In this document: in pieces, positions 52,048-64,000 of the stretch
Layout of the letters: the number at the start of each line of letters is the position of its first letter
Position numbering within the stretch: the first letter of the stretch is position 1
Translations under genes and position numbers: made by a program
Assembly (NCBI RefSeq): GCF_014204325.1
Contig: NZ_JACHKT010000029.1
Location: 1-64,000, forward strand
From: Arcicella rosea
GTDB lineage: Bacteria > Bacteroidota > Bacteroidia > Cytophagales > Spirosomataceae
Reading direction: 5' to 3'
DNA length: 64,000 bases
Notes under the pieces: generated by a model
What the model saw: only the letters and a program-made list of their open reading frames with translations
What the model was told of the DNA's origin: nothing
Databases searched by the model: none

Positions 52048-52353
52048 ATGGGAACAATAATTAACGATAGAATTGATGTTCGGATTAGCAAAGAACAAAA
52101 AGAGTTCGTTAAATACGCTTCTGAAATTAGTGGATTTAAAAATTTGTCTGAGTTTATAATTTATTGTATCAATAAACAAGCAAATGAGATAATATTAGAA
52201 AACAACTTAATTCTAAAGTCGCTTGAAGATAAAAGAGTTTTTGTTGATGCGATATTAAATCCACCACAACCTAATAGCAAATTGAAAAGAGCTCAATTAA
52301 ACTACAAAAAATTTATAGAACAAAATGCAAGCTCAGATTCAGAAATTAGCTAA
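52048..52353 (+). CDS. DUF1778-type antitoxin
   Basis: A 101-residue antitoxin of the DUF1778/TacA family. The N-terminal ribbon-helix-helix is visible in DRIDVRISKEQKEFVKYASE followed by KNLSEFIIYCINKQANEI. The C-terminal half (FVDAILNPPQPNSKLKRAQLNYKKF) is the toxin-binding arm. It overlaps the GNAT gene by 29 nt. Such proteins bind an operator upstream of their own operon and neutralise the toxin; that role is inferred from family and arrangement. Confidence 0.92.
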   Translation: MGTIINDRIDVRISKEQKEFVKYASEISGFKNLSEFIIYCINKQANEIILENNLILKSLEDKRVFVDAILNPPQPNSKLKRAQLNYKKFIEQNASSDSEIS

Positions 52354-52834
52354 TCTACATAAAAAAGACACATTTAGCTGTGGTCAACCACTGTTAGATA
52401 ATTATATAAGTAAACAAGCAAACCAAGATGTAAAAAGGAAACTATCGGTGTGCTATGTTTTAGTGGATGATGAACAGACAGTAAAAGGCTATTATACATT
52501 ATCTGCCAATGCAATCAAAAAAGACTCTTTGCCAGAAGAATTGAGCAAAAAACTACCCAAAAGCTATGAAGATTTACCTGTTATATTACTGGGTAGGTTA
52601 GCCATTGATAAGTCATTTCAAGGAAAAGGCTTTGGCGAAATTTTACTCTTAGATGCTCTCAATGAATGTTATCAATTATCTAATCAATTAGGAACAATTG
52701 CAGTGGTAGTAGATGCCATTGATACAAAAGCTCAAGCATTTTATGAATCTTACGGTTTTATTTTGCTACCAAGTTCTGGGAAAATGTTTCTTCCAATGAA
52801 AACAATTGAGGATTTGATTTTTAATGAGCATTAA
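52325..52834 (+). CDS. GNAT-family acetyltransferase toxin
   Basis: A 169-residue GCN5-related acetyltransferase of the TacT/AtaT type. The acetyl-CoA-binding motif is RLAIDKSFQGKGFGEILL (Q/RxxGxG/A). FSCGQPLLDNYISKQANQDV at the start is typical of this toxin group, and the catalytic Tyr region is ALAFYESYGFILLP-like near the end (AQAFYESYGFILLP). Members of the group acetylate aminoacyl-tRNA and stop translation. It follows its DUF1778 antitoxin with a 29-nt overlap. Activity in this organism is inferred. Confidence 0.92.
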   Translation: MQAQIQKLANLHKKDTFSCGQPLLDNYISKQANQDVKRKLSVCYVLVDDEQTVKGYYTLSANAIKKDSLPEELSKKLPKSYEDLPVILLGRLAIDKSFQGKGFGEILLLDALNECYQLSNQLGTIAVVVDAIDTKAQAFYESYGFILLPSSGKMFLPMKTIEDLIFNEH

Positions 52835-52855
52835 AATTATTTTTCCATAAAAACC

Positions 52856-52881
52856 CATTCCATGAACTTGACACATGGAAT
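52856..52881 (-). terminator. Terminator of the HMA-protein gene
   Basis: CATTCCATG pairs with CATGGAATG around an 8-nt loop; on the minus strand GGTTTTTATGG follows, a modest T-tract. It lies just past the stop of the HMA gene at 52901. Confidence 0.65.
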
Positions 52882-52900
52882 GAGTAATAACGGTAATCGC

Positions 52901-53248
52901 TTAGTGAGCTGAACCACCTTTTTTACAGCAAGAAGGTAATTTGTCATAACCTTTTGCATCAGCTGCTACTTCTTCTGCATCGTAACCTACTTCTGAAATC
53001 GCTTTCTTGATTTTGTCCACAGATGTTTTCTTTGGATTGAATGTTACTGTCACGACTTTGTCTTTACTTTCTACATTCAAATTAGATTCTGATACTCCTT
53101 TAGTAAAAGCTAATTTTTTCTCAATGCGTTCTTTGCACATTTCACAAATGGCAGAAGTTTTGATTTTTACAGTTTCTGTCTTAGGTGTTTCTGCAAAAGT
53201 GAACACTGAAACCAATAAAAGGACGAATACTAAAATGTTCTTTTTCAT
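52901..53248 (-). CDS. Exported heavy-metal-associated (HMA) domain protein
   Basis: A 115-residue protein with a signal peptide (ILVFVLLLVSVFTFAE) and an HMA fold: KIKTSAICEMCKERIEKKL with metal ligands Cys35 and Cys38, then VVTVTFNPKKTSVDKIKKAI. A C-terminal CCKKGGSAH tail adds two cysteines and a His. It probably binds copper or a similar soft metal in the periplasm. It lies downstream of the HMA-AraC regulator, separated from it by a repeat array. Confidence 0.92.
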   Translation of the reverse strand: MKKNILVFVLLLVSVFTFAETPKTETVKIKTSAICEMCKERIEKKLAFTKGVSESNLNVESKDKVVTVTFNPKKTSVDKIKKAISEVGYDAEEVAADAKGYDKLPSCCKKGGSAH

Positions 53249-53321
53249 GTTGTTGTTTGTTTAATTGTTTATTATGTTTTTTAAAATTTGTTTCTGTTTT
53301 ATCTGATGAGTTTTTATTCCC

Positions 53322-53354
53322 AGCTTTGTCAACTTTTTGAAAGTTGACAAAGCT
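53322..53354. repeat. Left flanking hairpin of the 21-bp array
   Basis: AGCTTTGTCAACTTT (53322-53336) and its exact complement (53340-53354) form a 15-bp stem with a 3-nt loop. Its core TTGTCAACTTT recurs in the right flanking hairpin. Confidence 0.9.
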
Positions 53355-53384
53355 CAAACTCAAGTATTTAAGCTACCGCTTTTA

Positions 53385-53610
53385 GAATATAAGCACCTTC
53401 TCGGAGAATATGACAACCCACTCGAAGAATGTAAGCATCCTCTCGGAGAATATGACCACCCACTCGAAGAATATAAGCACCTTCTCGGAGAATATAGCCA
53501 CCCGCTCGAAGAATATAAGCACCTCCTCGGAGAATATGACCACCCACTCGGAGAATCTAAGCACCTTCTCGGAGAATATAGCCATCCGCTCAGAGAATAT
53601 AAGCATCCGA
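53385..53610. repeat. Ten-unit 21-bp tandem repeat array (42-bp super-period)
   Basis: Ten full units of 21 bp run from 53385 to 53594, with a partial one to about 53610. They alternate between GAATATAAGCACC-type and GAATATGACCACCC-type halves. Because 21 is a multiple of 3 and the unit has few stops, four frames stay open across it (up to 105 codons) and would encode heptads such as EYKHLLG/EYDHPLE. There is no RBS or signal, so I do not call it a gene. It lies between the AraC-type regulator and the HMA gene, bounded by two hairpins. Nothing else was recognised in this 424-nt gap. Confidence 0.9.
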
Positions 53611-53615
53611 TTTCT

Positions 53616-53648
53616 AGTTTTGTCAACTTTTCAAAAGTTAACAAAACT
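53616..53648. repeat. Right flanking hairpin of the 21-bp array
   Basis: AGTTTTGTCAACTTTT (53616-53631) pairs with AAAAGTTAACAAAACT (53633-53648) with one mismatch and a 1-nt spacer. The core matches the left hairpin at 53322-53354. Confidence 0.9.
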
Positions 53649-53672
53649 TACTAACAGAGCTTGTTCAGAAAC

Positions 53673-54236
53673 CTAAATCGCATCAATGGCTTTTCTTTTA
53701 TGATTTTGCAATTCTTTAAAGCGACTGGGTGTTAGTCCCGTTACTTTTTTGAACTGATTCGATAAATGTTGAACGCTACTATAATGCAATTGGTCGGCAA
53801 TTTGGCTTAATGTCAATTCATCGTAAATTAATAATTCCTTCACTTTTTCTATCTTCTGGAAAATCAAATATTGTTCTATCGTCTTTCCTTCTACTTCCGA
53901 AAACAGCGTACTTAAATACTTATAATCTCTGCCAACACGTTCTGAAATCAGAAAAGAAGGCGTAATTTTATCAACATCCGTACCTGACTGATGCACCATT
54001 TCAATCACTACATTCTTTATCTTCTCAACAATCTTTTTACGTTTATCATCCAATAATTCAAAGCCAATACTTTCTAATTGTTTCGCTAAAGTAATTTGGA
54101 TATTTTCGTCTAAATCCTGTTTAATGCTTACTTCACCCAGTTCCATTTGTTGTACTTCTATATTTAGCTGAGTAAGTATTTGGCTAACCGCCATTTTACA
54201 GCGGTCACAAACCATATTTTTGATGTATAATTTCAT
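53673..54236 (-). CDS. AraC-type regulator with N-terminal HMA-like sensor segment
   Basis: A 187-residue regulator. The first 65 residues look like an HMA domain (LYIKNMVCDRCKMAVSQIL) with Cys10 and Cys13 as ligands and a second half ending GFELL. The C-terminal third is an AraC DNA-binding domain: VEGKTIEQYLIFQKIEKVKE, LTLSQIADQLHYSSVQHLSN, FKKVTGLTPSRFKEL. This suggests a metal-responsive regulator, copper being the likeliest metal. It lies 6 nt after the TonB receptor stop in the same operon. Confidence 0.9.
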   Translation of the reverse strand: MKLYIKNMVCDRCKMAVSQILTQLNIEVQQMELGEVSIKQDLDENIQITLAKQLESIGFELLDDKRKKIVEKIKNVVIEMVHQSGTDVDKITPSFLISERVGRDYKYLSTLFSEVEGKTIEQYLIFQKIEKVKELLIYDELTLSQIADQLHYSSVQHLSNQFKKVTGLTPSRFKELQNHKRKAIDAI

Positions 54237-54242
54237 GACAGC

Positions 54243-56501
54243 CTATTTAATTTTATAACGCATCCCCACATAAATCATTCGCCCAATAACTGGCCCCCAA
54301 ACCATTGAGGCATCGAAATTTCTACCGAAAGGGTCATTCGCCGCAATAATCGGATTGCTTTGGGTAAAGTTGTTTAGGTTTTCTCCTCCCACATACATTT
54401 CCCATTTCAAGAAAGCCTTCGTAACCTGTGCATTAATATTTGAAAAAGCAGGAGCGAAAACAGAAGGAGAAGTCGCAGAATGAACGTGTCCTTCGCTACT
54501 ATTAGGAATACGACGCTTGCCATTCCATTGCCAAGTGAAATCAAACTTCCATTTGTTATAAGGCAAGGCATACGCAATGTTGAATAATACTCTTTCACGG
54601 TTTACAAACTGTTTCGGCAACAAAGTAAGCTCGCCAGTTGGTGTCAAAACATCGTTTTGAACATCAAATAAGCGATAAGCCAATTTGGTTTCGATGCGTT
54701 TACTTGGGGCATAATTTACTTCTGCCTGAAAACTATTCGAGAATGAGCGACCTTTTAAATTATAGAAACGGACTAAATCAGCATTTTCCATATCTACGAT
54801 TAATTGGTTTTGGAAGTTGGTTCTATACACATCTAAAATGACTGTTCCTTTTTTGCCAAAGAGATAAAAATCGTTACTCAAGCTCGCCCCGAAATTCCAA
54901 GACTCTTCTGGACGAATAACTTCTGGCACAGACAGTTGTCTAGAATTGACTAACATCCCGAAGTTTTCAGCAATGGCATTGGGCATTCTCCAACCCTTTC
55001 CTGCACTTAAACGAAGATGCGTTTCAGAAGTAATATCATATTTCAAATGCACACGAGGCGTAAATCTTGTTCCATAAAGATTATGAAAATCTACTCTTCC
55101 GCCCAAAACAAGCGTTAATTTTTCAGGAATGGTTTCAGTATATTCTACAAAAGCACCCGGTACAGATTCGGTTCTTTTGAAAGTAGAATCAAGATACTTT
55201 TCATTATAATCGTCTAACAAATAACTTAAACCAGCTTTGTATTGATGATTGGTATTTCCGAAAATATTTTGATAGATTAAGTTAGCGTACAAACCCTTTT
55301 GAGTACCAGAATAGTTTTTAAAACCAAAATAAGAGACGTTATCATGATAAACTCCATTGACGATAAATCCTAAACCTTGATAAGGCTTTGTTTGATAGAG
55401 TTTGGCGGTTTTACTAAAGAATTCATAGCGTTTGGTAGTACTTCCAAAACCATAAGCTTTGGCAGTATTGCGGTCGGTATCAGGATTAAAATTTACTTGT
55501 CCGCCCAAACGATCTTCATAAAGTGCTTTAATTCCAAAAGAAGCCATCATTTTATCACTTTGGTACTTCCAACGATTGATGGCATTGTATTGTATGTAAA
55601 GTGGTAAGTCTAAGAAGCCATCTTTGTTTGGGTCTAACTTCGTTTGCAAAGTACTGGCGTGCGTCAACAAACCAACAGACCATTTTTCATTGATTTTATT
55701 GGCTAAATTCAAATTGATTTCTCCCCTACCCTGACTGTTCAAGTAAGTATTCAAGTACAATTTTTCGGCTGCATCAGGTTTAGCTAATTCCACATTCAAA
55801 GCACCCGTCATCGACTCGTAGCCACTTACTACCGAACCAGCCCCTTTACCAACATCAATCGAAGAAATCCAAGTACCGGGAATATAATTCAAACCAAAAG
55901 TGCTGTTTAATCCACGAATCGCAGGAATGTTTTCAACATTCGTTTGGATATAATTGCCCGATAAACCTAATAATTGGATTTGCTTTGCCCCTGTTACGGC
56001 ATCTGAATAACTTACAGAGACGGAAGCGTTGGTTTCAAAACTTTCGGATAAATTACAGCAAGCCGCTTTGGCAAGAGCCTTTGAAGTAATGATTTCGGTA
56101 TGAATAGGATTCATTCTATCCATAGAAGTAGCTTCGGCTTTTACAACAACTTCCGCCAAAGCCGCATTTTCTGGATTGAGATAAATCTCTAAAAATGCTA
56201 AGGAATGAACCATCAACGTATCAGTTTTATAACCTACTGAACTAACGATTAATTGATGATTTTGTGGAGCTTTTGATAAGGAGAATTCTCCTTTTTCATC
56301 AGATGAAGTACCTCTTTGTACATTCTGCCAACGGAGTGTTGCACCGATAATGGCTTCTTTTTTCCCGTCAGATTTTTTTTCTAAAACGATTCCACGAACA
56401 ATTTCTCCACTTTGAGAAAAAGTTTGAAAACTAAACACTATATTACTGATTATAAGGACAATAAATCCAGAGAGTCTTTTTAAAGCGACAGTAGAATTCA
56501 T
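54243..56501 (-). CDS. TonB-dependent outer membrane receptor, probably metal-related
   Basis: A 752-residue receptor. Signal peptide, then a carboxypeptidase-regulatory-like domain (GIVLEKKSDGKKEAIIGATL), then a plug with the unusual AKAACCNLSESFETNASVSV and GYESMTGALNVELAKPD. The barrel ends GRMIYVGMRYKIK. The Cys-Cys in the plug and the linked HMA and HMA-AraC genes point to transport or sensing of copper or another thiophilic metal. It sits between the HYC_CC_PP-like gene and the regulator. Confidence 0.92.
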   Translation of the reverse strand: MNSTVALKRLSGFIVLIISNIVFSFQTFSQSGEIVRGIVLEKKSDGKKEAIIGATLRWQNVQRGTSSDEKGEFSLSKAPQNHQLIVSSVGYKTDTLMVHSLAFLEIYLNPENAALAEVVVKAEATSMDRMNPIHTEIITSKALAKAACCNLSESFETNASVSVSYSDAVTGAKQIQLLGLSGNYIQTNVENIPAIRGLNSTFGLNYIPGTWISSIDVGKGAGSVVSGYESMTGALNVELAKPDAAEKLYLNTYLNSQGRGEINLNLANKINEKWSVGLLTHASTLQTKLDPNKDGFLDLPLYIQYNAINRWKYQSDKMMASFGIKALYEDRLGGQVNFNPDTDRNTAKAYGFGSTTKRYEFFSKTAKLYQTKPYQGLGFIVNGVYHDNVSYFGFKNYSGTQKGLYANLIYQNIFGNTNHQYKAGLSYLLDDYNEKYLDSTFKRTESVPGAFVEYTETIPEKLTLVLGGRVDFHNLYGTRFTPRVHLKYDITSETHLRLSAGKGWRMPNAIAENFGMLVNSRQLSVPEVIRPEESWNFGASLSNDFYLFGKKGTVILDVYRTNFQNQLIVDMENADLVRFYNLKGRSFSNSFQAEVNYAPSKRIETKLAYRLFDVQNDVLTPTGELTLLPKQFVNRERVLFNIAYALPYNKWKFDFTWQWNGKRRIPNSSEGHVHSATSPSVFAPAFSNINAQVTKAFLKWEMYVGGENLNNFTQSNPIIAANDPFGRNFDASMVWGPVIGRMIYVGMRYKIK

Positions 56502-62100: not shown

Positions 62101-64000
62101 ACCACAAATGGCATTGGTATCAACAGGAGCAATAACAGGTTTGACTGGCTTCGGTGAAACCTTTAAACTAAATATGACCGAAGTATCAGAAACACAACCA
62201 ATTGAATTTTTTAAAACAACTTTATAACTATAAGTACCAGCCGTTAAAACATCCGTTCCTTTAACTGATAAAGTATTAATCGCTGAAGCTAATGTAGTAG
62301 TATCTCTTTTCCAAACATAAGAAGTACCTCCACTTGTAGCTGTTAATGTTTTCACTTCTGTTCCACATACTAAATTTGGACTGACAGATGAAATCACTGG
62401 AGTAGCAGGCTTGGGAGAAACTTTTAAGCTTATCGCTAACGAAGTATCAGAAAAACAACCTGCAGCATTTTTTAGCACAACTTTGTAATTATAAGTTCCT
62501 GCCACTAAAACATCTGTCCCTTTAACTGATAAAGTATTGATGACAGTACTTAGCGTTGTTGTATCACGTTTCCAAATATAAGAAGCACCACCACTGGTAG
62601 CAGTTAAAACTTTTGTAGTAGTGCCACAAATTAAATTAGGAACAACTGGCGAAATGATTGGTGTTGTGGGTTTCGGAGAATATGTTAAATTGATTATCGC
62701 AGAAGTATCAGAAGCACAGCCAACTGCATTAATAAGTACTACTTTATACTTATAAACTCCCGCTGTAACAAGGCTAGCTCCGCTGATTGCTAAACTATTG
62801 GTCGTTGAACTAAGTACTGTGCCATCTCGCTTCCAAATATAAGACGTTCCACCCGTCGTTGCGGTTAATGTTTTTGTATCAGTTCCACAAATTAAATTGG
62901 GACTGACTGGTGAAATTACTGGCGTTGTTGGCTTAGGCGAAACCTTTAAAGTAACAGCCACCGAAGTATCAGATGCACAACCAACTGAATTTTGAAGAAC
63001 TACTTTGTAATTATAAGTCCCTGCAACTAAAACATCATTTCCTGTAACAGCTAAAGTATTTGTACTAGAACTCAATACTGTTCCATTTCGCTTCCAAAGA
63101 TAAGAAGCTCCGCCAGTTGTTGCGGTTAATGTTTTTGTATCAGTTCCACAAATTAAATTGGGACTGACTGGTGAAATTACGGGCGTTGTTGGTTTGGGAG
63201 AAACCTTTAAAGTAACAGCCACCGAAGTATCAGATGCACAACCAACTGAATTTTGAAGAACTACTTTGTAATTATAAGTGCCTGCAACTAAAACATCGTT
63301 TCCTGTAACAGCTAAAGTATTTGTACTAGAACTCAATACTGTTCCATTTCGCTTCCAAAGATAAGAAGCTCCTCCCGTCGTTGCGGTTAATGTTTTTGTA
63401 TCAGTTCCACAAATTAAATTGGGACTGACTGGTGAAATTACTGGCGTTGTTGGTTTCGGTGATACTTTTAAACTAACAGCAGTACTCGTTGATGTACAAC
63501 CTGTTGTACTATTAGTTGTTGAAACGCTATAAGAATAAGTACCCGCAGTTGTTACAGAAGTTCCTGCAACTGATAACGTTGCTGTGGCGATACTTAAAGA
63601 TGTTCCGTCTCTTTTCCAATCATAATTGGCTGCACCACTCGCTACAACGTTTCTAATACTTGAACCACAAACAGCCGTTGTAACATCTGTCGGTGGAGTA
63701 ACCGTTGGAGCAGTAGGAACAATTTGTGTAACCGTAAAAGCACTTACTGAAATATAAGAACCAATCGCAGTTTGTTTTACTTTTGCCGTATAAGTTCCGG
63801 GCGTAGCAAGATAAGTTTGTGTTGTAGCAACTAAAACATTGCTAGCATTATACCATTCATAAACAACATAACCACTTGGTAAAGTAAGTTTTGAAGTTCC
63901 CGTAGCAGTACACGTATAAACACCAGAAGCTGTAATTATTGGCGTTTGTGCAGACGATACCTTTAATGATAGGATCAACCAAATCATTAAAAGATATGAA
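59188..64000 (-). CDS. Giant Ig-repeat T9SS secreted protein, 5' end cut by the window edge
   Basis: At least 1599 residues. The frame stays open to the window's right edge (reading SYLLMIWLILSLKVSSAQ), so the Met at 63987 lies inside the signal peptide and the true start is probably just outside. About eighteen Ig-like domains follow; the N-terminal half has eight homologous domains of about 87 residues with cores like ATTGGASYLWKRNGT and NSVGCASDTS. Two adjacent copies (63168-62907 region) are identical in protein. The C-terminal half has more diverged domains. The tail GVNVYPNPTASGDITIQVVE to KKVLVMN is a T9SS sorting domain. It is likely a surface adhesin; ligand unknown. Confidence 0.9.
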   Translation of the reverse strand, partial: SYLLMIWLILSLKVSSAQTPIITASGVYTCTATGTSKLTLPSGYVVYEWYNASNVLVATTQTYLATPGTYTAKVKQTAIGSYISVSAFTVTQIVPTAPTVTPPTDVTTAVCGSSIRNVVASGAANYDWKRDGTSLSIATATLSVAGTSVTTAGTYSYSVSTTNSTTGCTSTSTAVSLKVSPKPTTPVISPVSPNLICGTDTKTLTATTGGASYLWKRNGTVLSSSTNTLAVTGNDVLVAGTYNYKVVLQNSVGCASDTSVAVTLKVSPKPTTPVISPVSPNLICGTDTKTLTATTGGASYLWKRNGTVLSSSTNTLAVTGNDVLVAGTYNYKVVLQNSVGCASDTSVAVTLKVSPKPTTPVISPVSPNLICGTDTKTLTATTGGTSYIWKRDGTVLSSTTNSLAISGASLVTAGVYKYKVVLINAVGCASDTSAIINLTYSPKPTTPIISPVVPNLICGTTTKVLTATSGGASYIWKRDTTTLSTVINTLSVKGTDVLVAGTYNYKVVLKNAAGCFSDTSLAISLKVSPKPATPVISSVSPNLVCGTEVKTLTATSGGTSYVWKRDTTTLASAINTLSVKGTDVLTAGTYSYKVVLKNSIGCVSDTSVIFSLKVSPKPVKPVIAPVDTNAICGISTKTLTATTGGTSYIWKRDTTTLSSKINALIITGNDVLKAGTYAYKVVLQNAVGCLSDTSVAVSLKVSPKPATPVITTPSSTLICGSETKILTATSGGSSYIWKRGGTILSSKVNTITVARSDVSTDGTFNFTVTLKNIVGCSSDTSAVQALVLSVNPAKPTIIAGSTTTFCDGGSVVLSSSYTSNENVWSRINGTDIQTSGANGITVTTSNTYTVKAKNIYSCFSVSSEPQIVTVNANPSPPVVLEGTAVSICNLDSTVLNANNKGNGVYSWNNGKKTRSITVNTAGNYSLTYTDGNTCTSAPSLVTVLTVNPLPAKPTITATRPLEFCDEDFTTLRSSVSSGYIWSNGQTSAQIDVKVSSIISVIAVSDKGCKSKDASNPVTVIVNPLPNTPNVLANGPLIFCPDSTVTLSSSVIGTEYIWTNTLNSTVFNKTQAVIIAEPGEYAVQAISVKKCVSKISKSVKVNVREAPQPASILASPIATFCKGGNVTLRALIANGNVDRYSWRNEDNQKEIATASSITTDTSGRYSVKVRDVFGCFSAYSRVLKVTVNPLPNKPTLTIVRPKIFCDGDSTLLQASLPSTTTNGSKNIYQWTVDGQLQNNINGRTFVWKKANSIGVAIIDTNGCKSVASSDTIKTTVNSLPSAPSITIRGSNPFCADKNVSLTAIGVQANSYKWSISSSTSSTITVNTAGNVTVQAVSAFGCFSKSSQPIILNTYPLPTAPQIVNVSSTVFCDGESVTLSTVNTNKAYWFKTTNDSLGTGSNNRITINKSGNYFARVEDKNSCFSAPSNSITVDVRSLPSTPVITQAGAFYLEAQSNGDEEGYIWKYNNDVQKNFLSKTIKVKKDGDYQVQSSVLYNQVALPSGKLMCYSKPSVVYKYVQDLSFEGVNVYPNPTASGDITIQVVEDLVGAELIVYTMEGKIIDEFKIGKFDTPKTIKLTGSIGNVYYIKLKTDSFEKVKKVLVMN
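62902..63423. repeat. Near-identical 261-bp tandem repeats inside the Ig-repeat gene
   Basis: Two successive 261-bp units (repeat landmarks GACTGACTGG at 62901 and 63162, and again near 63423) differ by only a few silent bases. Flanking units are clearly homologous but more diverged. This indicates recent duplication or gene conversion. Confidence 0.85.

Follow-up and report, generated by a model that had tools for sequence, protein, structure and literature searches.

The 21-bp tandem array of the analyzed window (the first 64,000 nucleotides of Arcicella rosea contig NZ_JACHKT010000029.1, here C29) was most plausibly one copy of a dispersed, homogenising minisatellite family, contained within a larger class of arrays of the same genome, a reading to which we assign a probability of about 0.6. 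No function of the array for the adjacent metal genes needs to be invoked, and at this place it is probably without function. The two hairpins flanking the array and the array itself were separable parts. The minisatellite account explains well the five kin arrays of the genome, and would cover the 21/42-bp build common to unrelated array sequences only on the assumption of a single ancestor.

Anatomy of the repeat element and its neighborhood

The element (53322-53648) lay between two genes on the minus strand, and had the hairpin, array and hairpin order and the coordinates given in the first-pass annotation. Its parts and the two genes were as follows:

52901..53248, minus strand: HMA-domain protein, 115 aa, the downstream gene (Pfam HMA, 3e-9)
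53322..53354, no strand assigned: left palindrome AGCTTTGTCAACTTTTTGAAAGTTGACAAAGCT, 15-bp stem; C2, C25 and C54 of the own genome carry similar palindromes, as do relatives
53363..53614, plus strand: tandem array of 12 x 21 bp, with A/B alternation forming a 42-bp higher-order unit (Tandem Repeats Finder, unit identities); kin arrays at C9, C10, C18 and C34
53616..53648, no strand assigned: right palindrome AGTTTTGTCAACTTTTCAAAAGTTAACAAAACT, 24 bp beyond the AraC stop codon; its location resembles that of a terminator
53673..54236, minus strand: AraC-family helix-turn-helix protein, 187 aa, the upstream gene (Pfam HTH_18, 9e-16)

Ten units had been counted initially, while the array in register comprised 12 (53363-53614). 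The two alternating unit types described earlier were real: A cores were 91% alike and B cores 83%, as compared with 74% between A and B, the pattern expected for homogenisation by pairs. Units were arranged head-to-tail, were imperfect and fell within the 10-100 bp size range of minisatellites, the first and the last being the most divergent. Tandem Repeats Finder scored the array 311 at period 42 and 364 at period 84, and lag-42 identity reached 0.92 across 84 bp, far above chance. A CRISPR array was discarded, since window units abut without spacers.

Both ends carried a palindrome with the core TTGTCAACTTT, in agreement with the reported pair of hairpins sharing a core, and TGTCAACTTTT was common to both flanks. 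The palindromes lay 8 bp and 1 bp away from the array, with predicted folding energies of -19.1 kcal/mol for the left hairpin (53321-53354) and -10.0 kcal/mol for the right one, which has one mismatch.

Distribution of the array family

Genome searches relied on a sequence-only model of the 21-bp unit, and a subset of first-look candidates was scored per genome. In the own genome, this model yielded 20 matches, all within five arrays (C9, C10, C18, C34 and the window array), and a pattern search likewise yielded 20 matches in the same five arrays (0 and 0 for the reversed pattern). The check for second copies proposed in the first-pass annotation was therefore positive, with four further arrays besides the window. 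The model found the unit in none of 38 relatives, seven of them from the same genus, and, with stricter filters, in none of 394 genomes from the phylum, at least three of which (G011, G015, G035) were also among the 38. A degenerate pattern gave no match in genome_contigs and viral_contigs, where records very near the window genome may be excluded.

The five arrays can be considered kin because the C34 and C10 arrays ended in window-type units, and the window array started and ended with units like theirs. Each of the five closely followed the end of a gene, in either orientation relative to it, and their flanks were unrelated, with nothing visible in common. Window-type hairpins were present at the window copy and at none of the other four. 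The earlier suggestion of a mobile repeat was thus upheld in one respect, the recurrence of the array unit at five places of the genome, and failed in another: the hairpin-array-hairpin structure was not the dispersed unit, as the remaining copies had neither these hairpins nor common flanks. A BrickBuilt-like MITE was not supported either: no common terminal inverted repeats were found, and the window hairpins were missing from the other four copies. On inspection of the window flanks by eye, no target-site duplication was seen. Cargo of phages or plasmids was discarded, as there were no matches of the window array to plasmids, of the C18 array to phages or of the degenerate pattern to viral contigs.

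A wider class of 21/42-bp arrays

Tandem alikeness was scanned at every lag from 15 to 130 over 801,553 bp of the own genome (C9, C10, C18, C34, the window contig, C25 and part of C2), and 29 arrays were detected, 17 of them with period 42, including the five of the window family. The remaining ones had periods of 41 (two arrays), 21, 63 and 126 (one each) or others (seven). The density of the class is uncertain, since these contigs were a non-random sample chosen for a window-like array or hairpin. C1:1-120000, a sample chosen by neither, had a single array, which was of 63 bp and lay 44 bp beyond a stop codon; 42-bp arrays were absent from it.

No array with a best period of 42 was found among the 30 detected in samples from other genomes: 16 in G007 (400 kb), 4 in G005 (240 kb), 3 in G001-4 plus G006 (149 kb), 0 in G012 (80 kb), 4 in 80 named Bacteroidota loci (946 kb) and 3 in ten family or order genomes (400 kb). 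One of these 30 had period 84 and two had period 21. Lag 42 or period 21 was listed by single-lag counts or Tandem Repeats Finder at two G007 loci, L262 (coding) and L269, although at both of them a shorter or different period gave the better fit.

Most of the 42-bp units were themselves built from two halves. Of 20 consensus 42-bp units, 18 (one a plain 21-bp array, and kin arrays counted apart) matched themselves best at an inner lag of 21, as did one of two further arrays. The units sorted into about ten sequence groups, and similarity between groups was at chance (19.02 vs. a null of 18.88, sd 0.14; 173 pairs). Two array groups other than that of the window were also dispersed, at three and four places, and were restricted to the own genome among 12 searched. 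There was no positive A/T phasing at 10-11 bp, and correlations at lags 10 and 11 were negative (z of -3.2 and -3.5, in 21 consensus units that were not all independent), leading us to reject helical A/T phasing at 10.5 bp. Two-copy 21-bp duplications, which could act as seeds, were not seen outside arrays, and neither were duplications of 17-22 bp.

A 41-bp family was present at three places of the own genome. Within the window, a 41-bp tandem array at 2105-2447 ended in a hairpin whose arms resembled the repeat unit, and had kin at C15:87357 and C28:37784.

Placement of arrays past gene ends

When array calling was restricted to periods 21, 41-43, 63, 84 and 126, 23 arrays were obtained, corresponding to 19 array-bearing gaps after dropping one array inside a 1.5-kb gene, merging two that formed a single locus, and excluding two more, of which one was at the edge of a contig and the other in an uncalled gap. 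Flanking genes were codirectional in 15 of these gaps (9 ++ and 6 --), convergent in four (+-) and divergent (-+) in none, the latter arrangement accounting for 29% of array-free intergenic bases (P = 0.0014). In codirectional gaps, arrays were closer to the upstream stop (-34 to 59 bp) than to the next start (-11 to 315 bp; Wilcoxon p = 0.0004). For the convergent gaps, distances between the array and the nearer of the two stops were -39, -2, 19 and 78 bp. No common theme was evident in the Pfam domains of 20 neighboring genes (three upstream genes were outside the set).

A hairpin lay between the stop and the array in several cases, that of the window included, and none was found in others. 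Matching palindromes framed three of the 22 arrays shown (the window, C34:34230 and C18:1247), and were of three different kinds. At C18 (L214, 1180-1620) a long palindrome, GTAGCACGAGTTTCCAACTCGT / ACGAGTTGGAAACTCGTGCTAC, stood at each side of the array.

Hairpins and gene 3' ends

Counts of CAACTTT-loop-AAAGTTG palindromes were obtained for 39 genomes, 21 of which had at least one; the reversed pattern served as a control. The excess was small in the own genome, where the control is weak (7 vs. 5), and the motif was above control in five of seven genomes from the same genus (32 vs. 4 in G007, 9 vs. 1 in G004, 9 vs. 0 in G005, 4 vs. 1 in G003 and 3 vs. 0 in G002), with no excess in G001 (1 vs. 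2) or G006 (3 vs. 4). Outside the genus, the strongest excess corresponded to G019 (17 vs. 1), followed by G017 (7 vs. 2).

At 35 of the listed palindrome places, 37 hairpins were read, their constant tip being the search pattern itself and hence no finding. In most of them the palindrome extended beyond this tip, often to 33-38 bp (range 20-53), with outer bases that differed among hairpins and were complementary. Based on rough ORF calls (open segments of at least 240 bases), 32 hairpins had open segments on both sides, of which 15 were convergent, 16 codirectional and one divergent, so that 31 of the 32 touched at least one 3' end; of the remaining five, one was inside an ORF and four had an open segment on one side.

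The window hairpin resembled such gene-3'-end palindromes, which several genomes of this genus and its family carried, the right one being a stem-loop at the 3' end of the AraC gene. Palindrome copies of the own genome at C2, C25 and C54 had no array within the few hundred surrounding bases. Like intrinsic terminators, the window hairpins had perfect or near-perfect stems, and the right one was just past a stop codon; unlike them, they lacked a T-run, and a T-run terminator scan of 52800-54300 returned no terminator-like sites, window hairpins included. The two hairpins would be terminator-like palindromes belonging to the neighborhood, outside the array proper, and may act in termination.

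Proposed origin and relation to known repeats

According to the minisatellite account, blocks of array would have spread by copying into the intergenic spaces immediately behind genes, where unequal exchange or slippage would extend, trim and homogenise them. Exchange in steps of the 21-bp unit or the 42-bp pair would keep the register while the sequence drifts, and arrays may then be retained wherever no coding region or promoter is damaged. The common 21/42-bp build of the unrelated arrays would be covered by this account only if all descended from one ancestor and drifted beyond recognition; with between-group similarity at chance, such a common origin is unsupported. The 41-bp and 63-bp arrays indicate that the period is not absolute.

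Alternating monomer types within a longer and more uniform unit are characteristic of the higher-order repeats of primate alpha satellite. The window monomers alternated in the same manner, in a bacterial array of about 12 monomers and from a family dispersed in gene gaps, unlike that satellite. REP/REPIN and BIME elements are extragenic and sometimes form arrays, REPs being palindromic and associated with RAYT transposases. The window genome has Y1 transposase genes and its arrays were extragenic, as in those systems; in contrast, the window unit was non-palindromic and the window contig had no Y1 match.

Within Bacteroidota, one study describes the BrickBuilt (23-bp units) and MITE464/PgRS (41-bp units) elements of Porphyromonas gingivalis as dispersed intergenic tandem arrays of imperfect units, with a narrow host range and about 10-20 copies (PMC4596501). 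The window family was likewise tandem, imperfect, intergenic, dispersed and narrow in host range. According to the same study, BrickBuilt arrays carry a leader and a tail, and 4 of 19 copies are bounded at either end by IS5-like terminal inverted repeats (PMC4596501), whereas the five copies of the window family had no common flanks or ends, and several unrelated groups of this genome shared one 2 x 21 build. With the exception of that paper, no description of such a class was found in the open-access literature (titles and abstract openings of the top matches) on 21/42-bp or intergenic bacterial arrays and on Arcicella repeats.

Dispersed minisatellites were thus already known in Bacteroidota; what differs here is the presence of around ten unrelated groups in one genome with the same period and inner 21-bp pairing, a build that samples from other genomes of the genus did not show. 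How a bacterial tandem repeat comes by its unit length is therefore a question that becomes testable in this genome, as common descent with drift vs. a length-setting process. The latter would be an active, length-locked and largely sequence-independent process that adds 21 bp at a time, mostly as 42-bp A-B pairs, to form arrays of about 12 units past gene ends, the 2 x 21 build reflecting the geometry of an enzyme rather than common descent; we regard it as possible, with a low probability.

Alternative readings of the array

The array could be an operator, bound by the adjacent AraC-type regulator and controlling the HMA gene or the cluster. A binding array for the regulator had been proposed with reference to a 21-bp unit equal to two helical turns, and the array does lie between the AraC and HMA genes. 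The regulator had been labeled HMA-AraC; the AraC helix-turn-helix was supported by Pfam in 53676-54236, while no HMA domain was recovered there at E<=0.001, and that label came from a visible CxxC near the N-terminus alone. Searching for this protein in 39 genomes resulted in matches in 28, own genome counted (i.e. 27 of the 38 relatives, none of which had the unit). Among 30 AraC loci kept, an HMA relative was found beyond the AraC gene (E<1e-30) in six besides the window. In the closest one, L067 (AraC 65% identical), the HMA match began 66 bp after the end of the AraC match, and in the other five (L070, L083, L085, L088 and L090) another open frame seemed to separate both genes. None of the stretches read between AraC and HMA at these six loci contained the array or the hairpin pair. 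Absence from relatives with the same cluster had been named in the first-pass annotation, together with a lack of binding, as an argument against regulation; the absence seen here makes a conserved operator of this regulator improbable. In addition, the remaining four copies of the family adjoined genes of other kinds. The operator reading is consequently very improbable, and arrays of this kind should not be taken as operators of whichever gene they flank.

A gene for a heptad-repeat protein or a structured RNA appeared least credible. The earlier count of four open frames was about right and several frames are indeed open; since 21 is a multiple of 3, any stop-free unit yields an open array. 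The statement that there were no start signals did not hold, as two short ATG-started ORFs were present (53410-53676, plus strand, 88 aa; 53382-53606, minus strand, 74 aa). Two other frames running through the array had no Pfam match, mismatches between units showed no evident codon-phase bias or consistent pattern, and the C34 copy had stops in the frame open in the window. The last two results led us to discard a coding repeat. With regard to RNA, some other arrays of the class folded better than their shuffled units. Self-complementarity had a z of 2.5-3.0 in some other groups, a slightly raised class mean of 0.66 (s.e. 0.27) and a z of -0.69 in the window unit. Folding of the window array was no better than that of shuffled sequences on either strand (z of +1.04 and +0.57), and the best Rfam hit (21.5 bits) was nowhere near the gathering score of 111. 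The structured RNA suggested in the first-pass annotation was rejected on these grounds.

Arrays may also serve as docking sites behind genes, where supercoils pile up, for a protein that binds or wraps DNA, either a nucleoid protein or an enzyme of the gyrase type, with the 21/42-bp step keeping sites on the same helix face. The gyrase-binding BIMEs of Escherichia coli are a parallel, and both the period common to unrelated sequences and the placement past gene ends are consistent with such a role; the lack of a motif common to the groups, of positive 10-11-bp phasing of A/T content and of best-period-42 arrays in the same-genus samples makes it rather unlikely. Alternatively, arrays could be moved by a single-strand (HUH, Y1/IS200-like) transposase that leaves no inverted ends or target duplications, in the way proposed for RAYTs and REP/REPIN elements. 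The missing common ends would fit, and of the eight Y1_Tnp matches in the genome (six over the cut-off), three, including one below the cut-off, had a 42-bp array within flanks of about 1.5 kb, one such array lying between REP-like palindromes beside its Y1 gene and none of the three belonging to the window family. However, two of these three arrays followed the end of the next gene and not that of the Y1 gene, and resembled groups with members on Y1-free contigs, and the unit of the window family had no hairpin, so that transposition by this route is unlikely as well, if anything a shade more so.

Additional observations

The acetyl-CoA carboxylase beta protein encoded in the window shared 94% identity with that of an Arcicella MAG and 88% with that of Pseudarcicella, as befits an Arcicella-like genome. 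At C34 (L256, 14080-15330), an IS200-like (Y1) transposase gene was located between REP-like palindromes (GTCGTAGG/CCTACGAC with GAGCGTCTCGCTC), two of which enclosed a 42-bp array. In the window itself, genes for a TacA1-type antitoxin and, after it, a GNAT acetyltransferase (52048-52834) formed a TacA-TacT-like toxin-antitoxin pair, and tandem repeats of 261 bp were found at 62146-63480, within the ORF of a 1599-aa protein.
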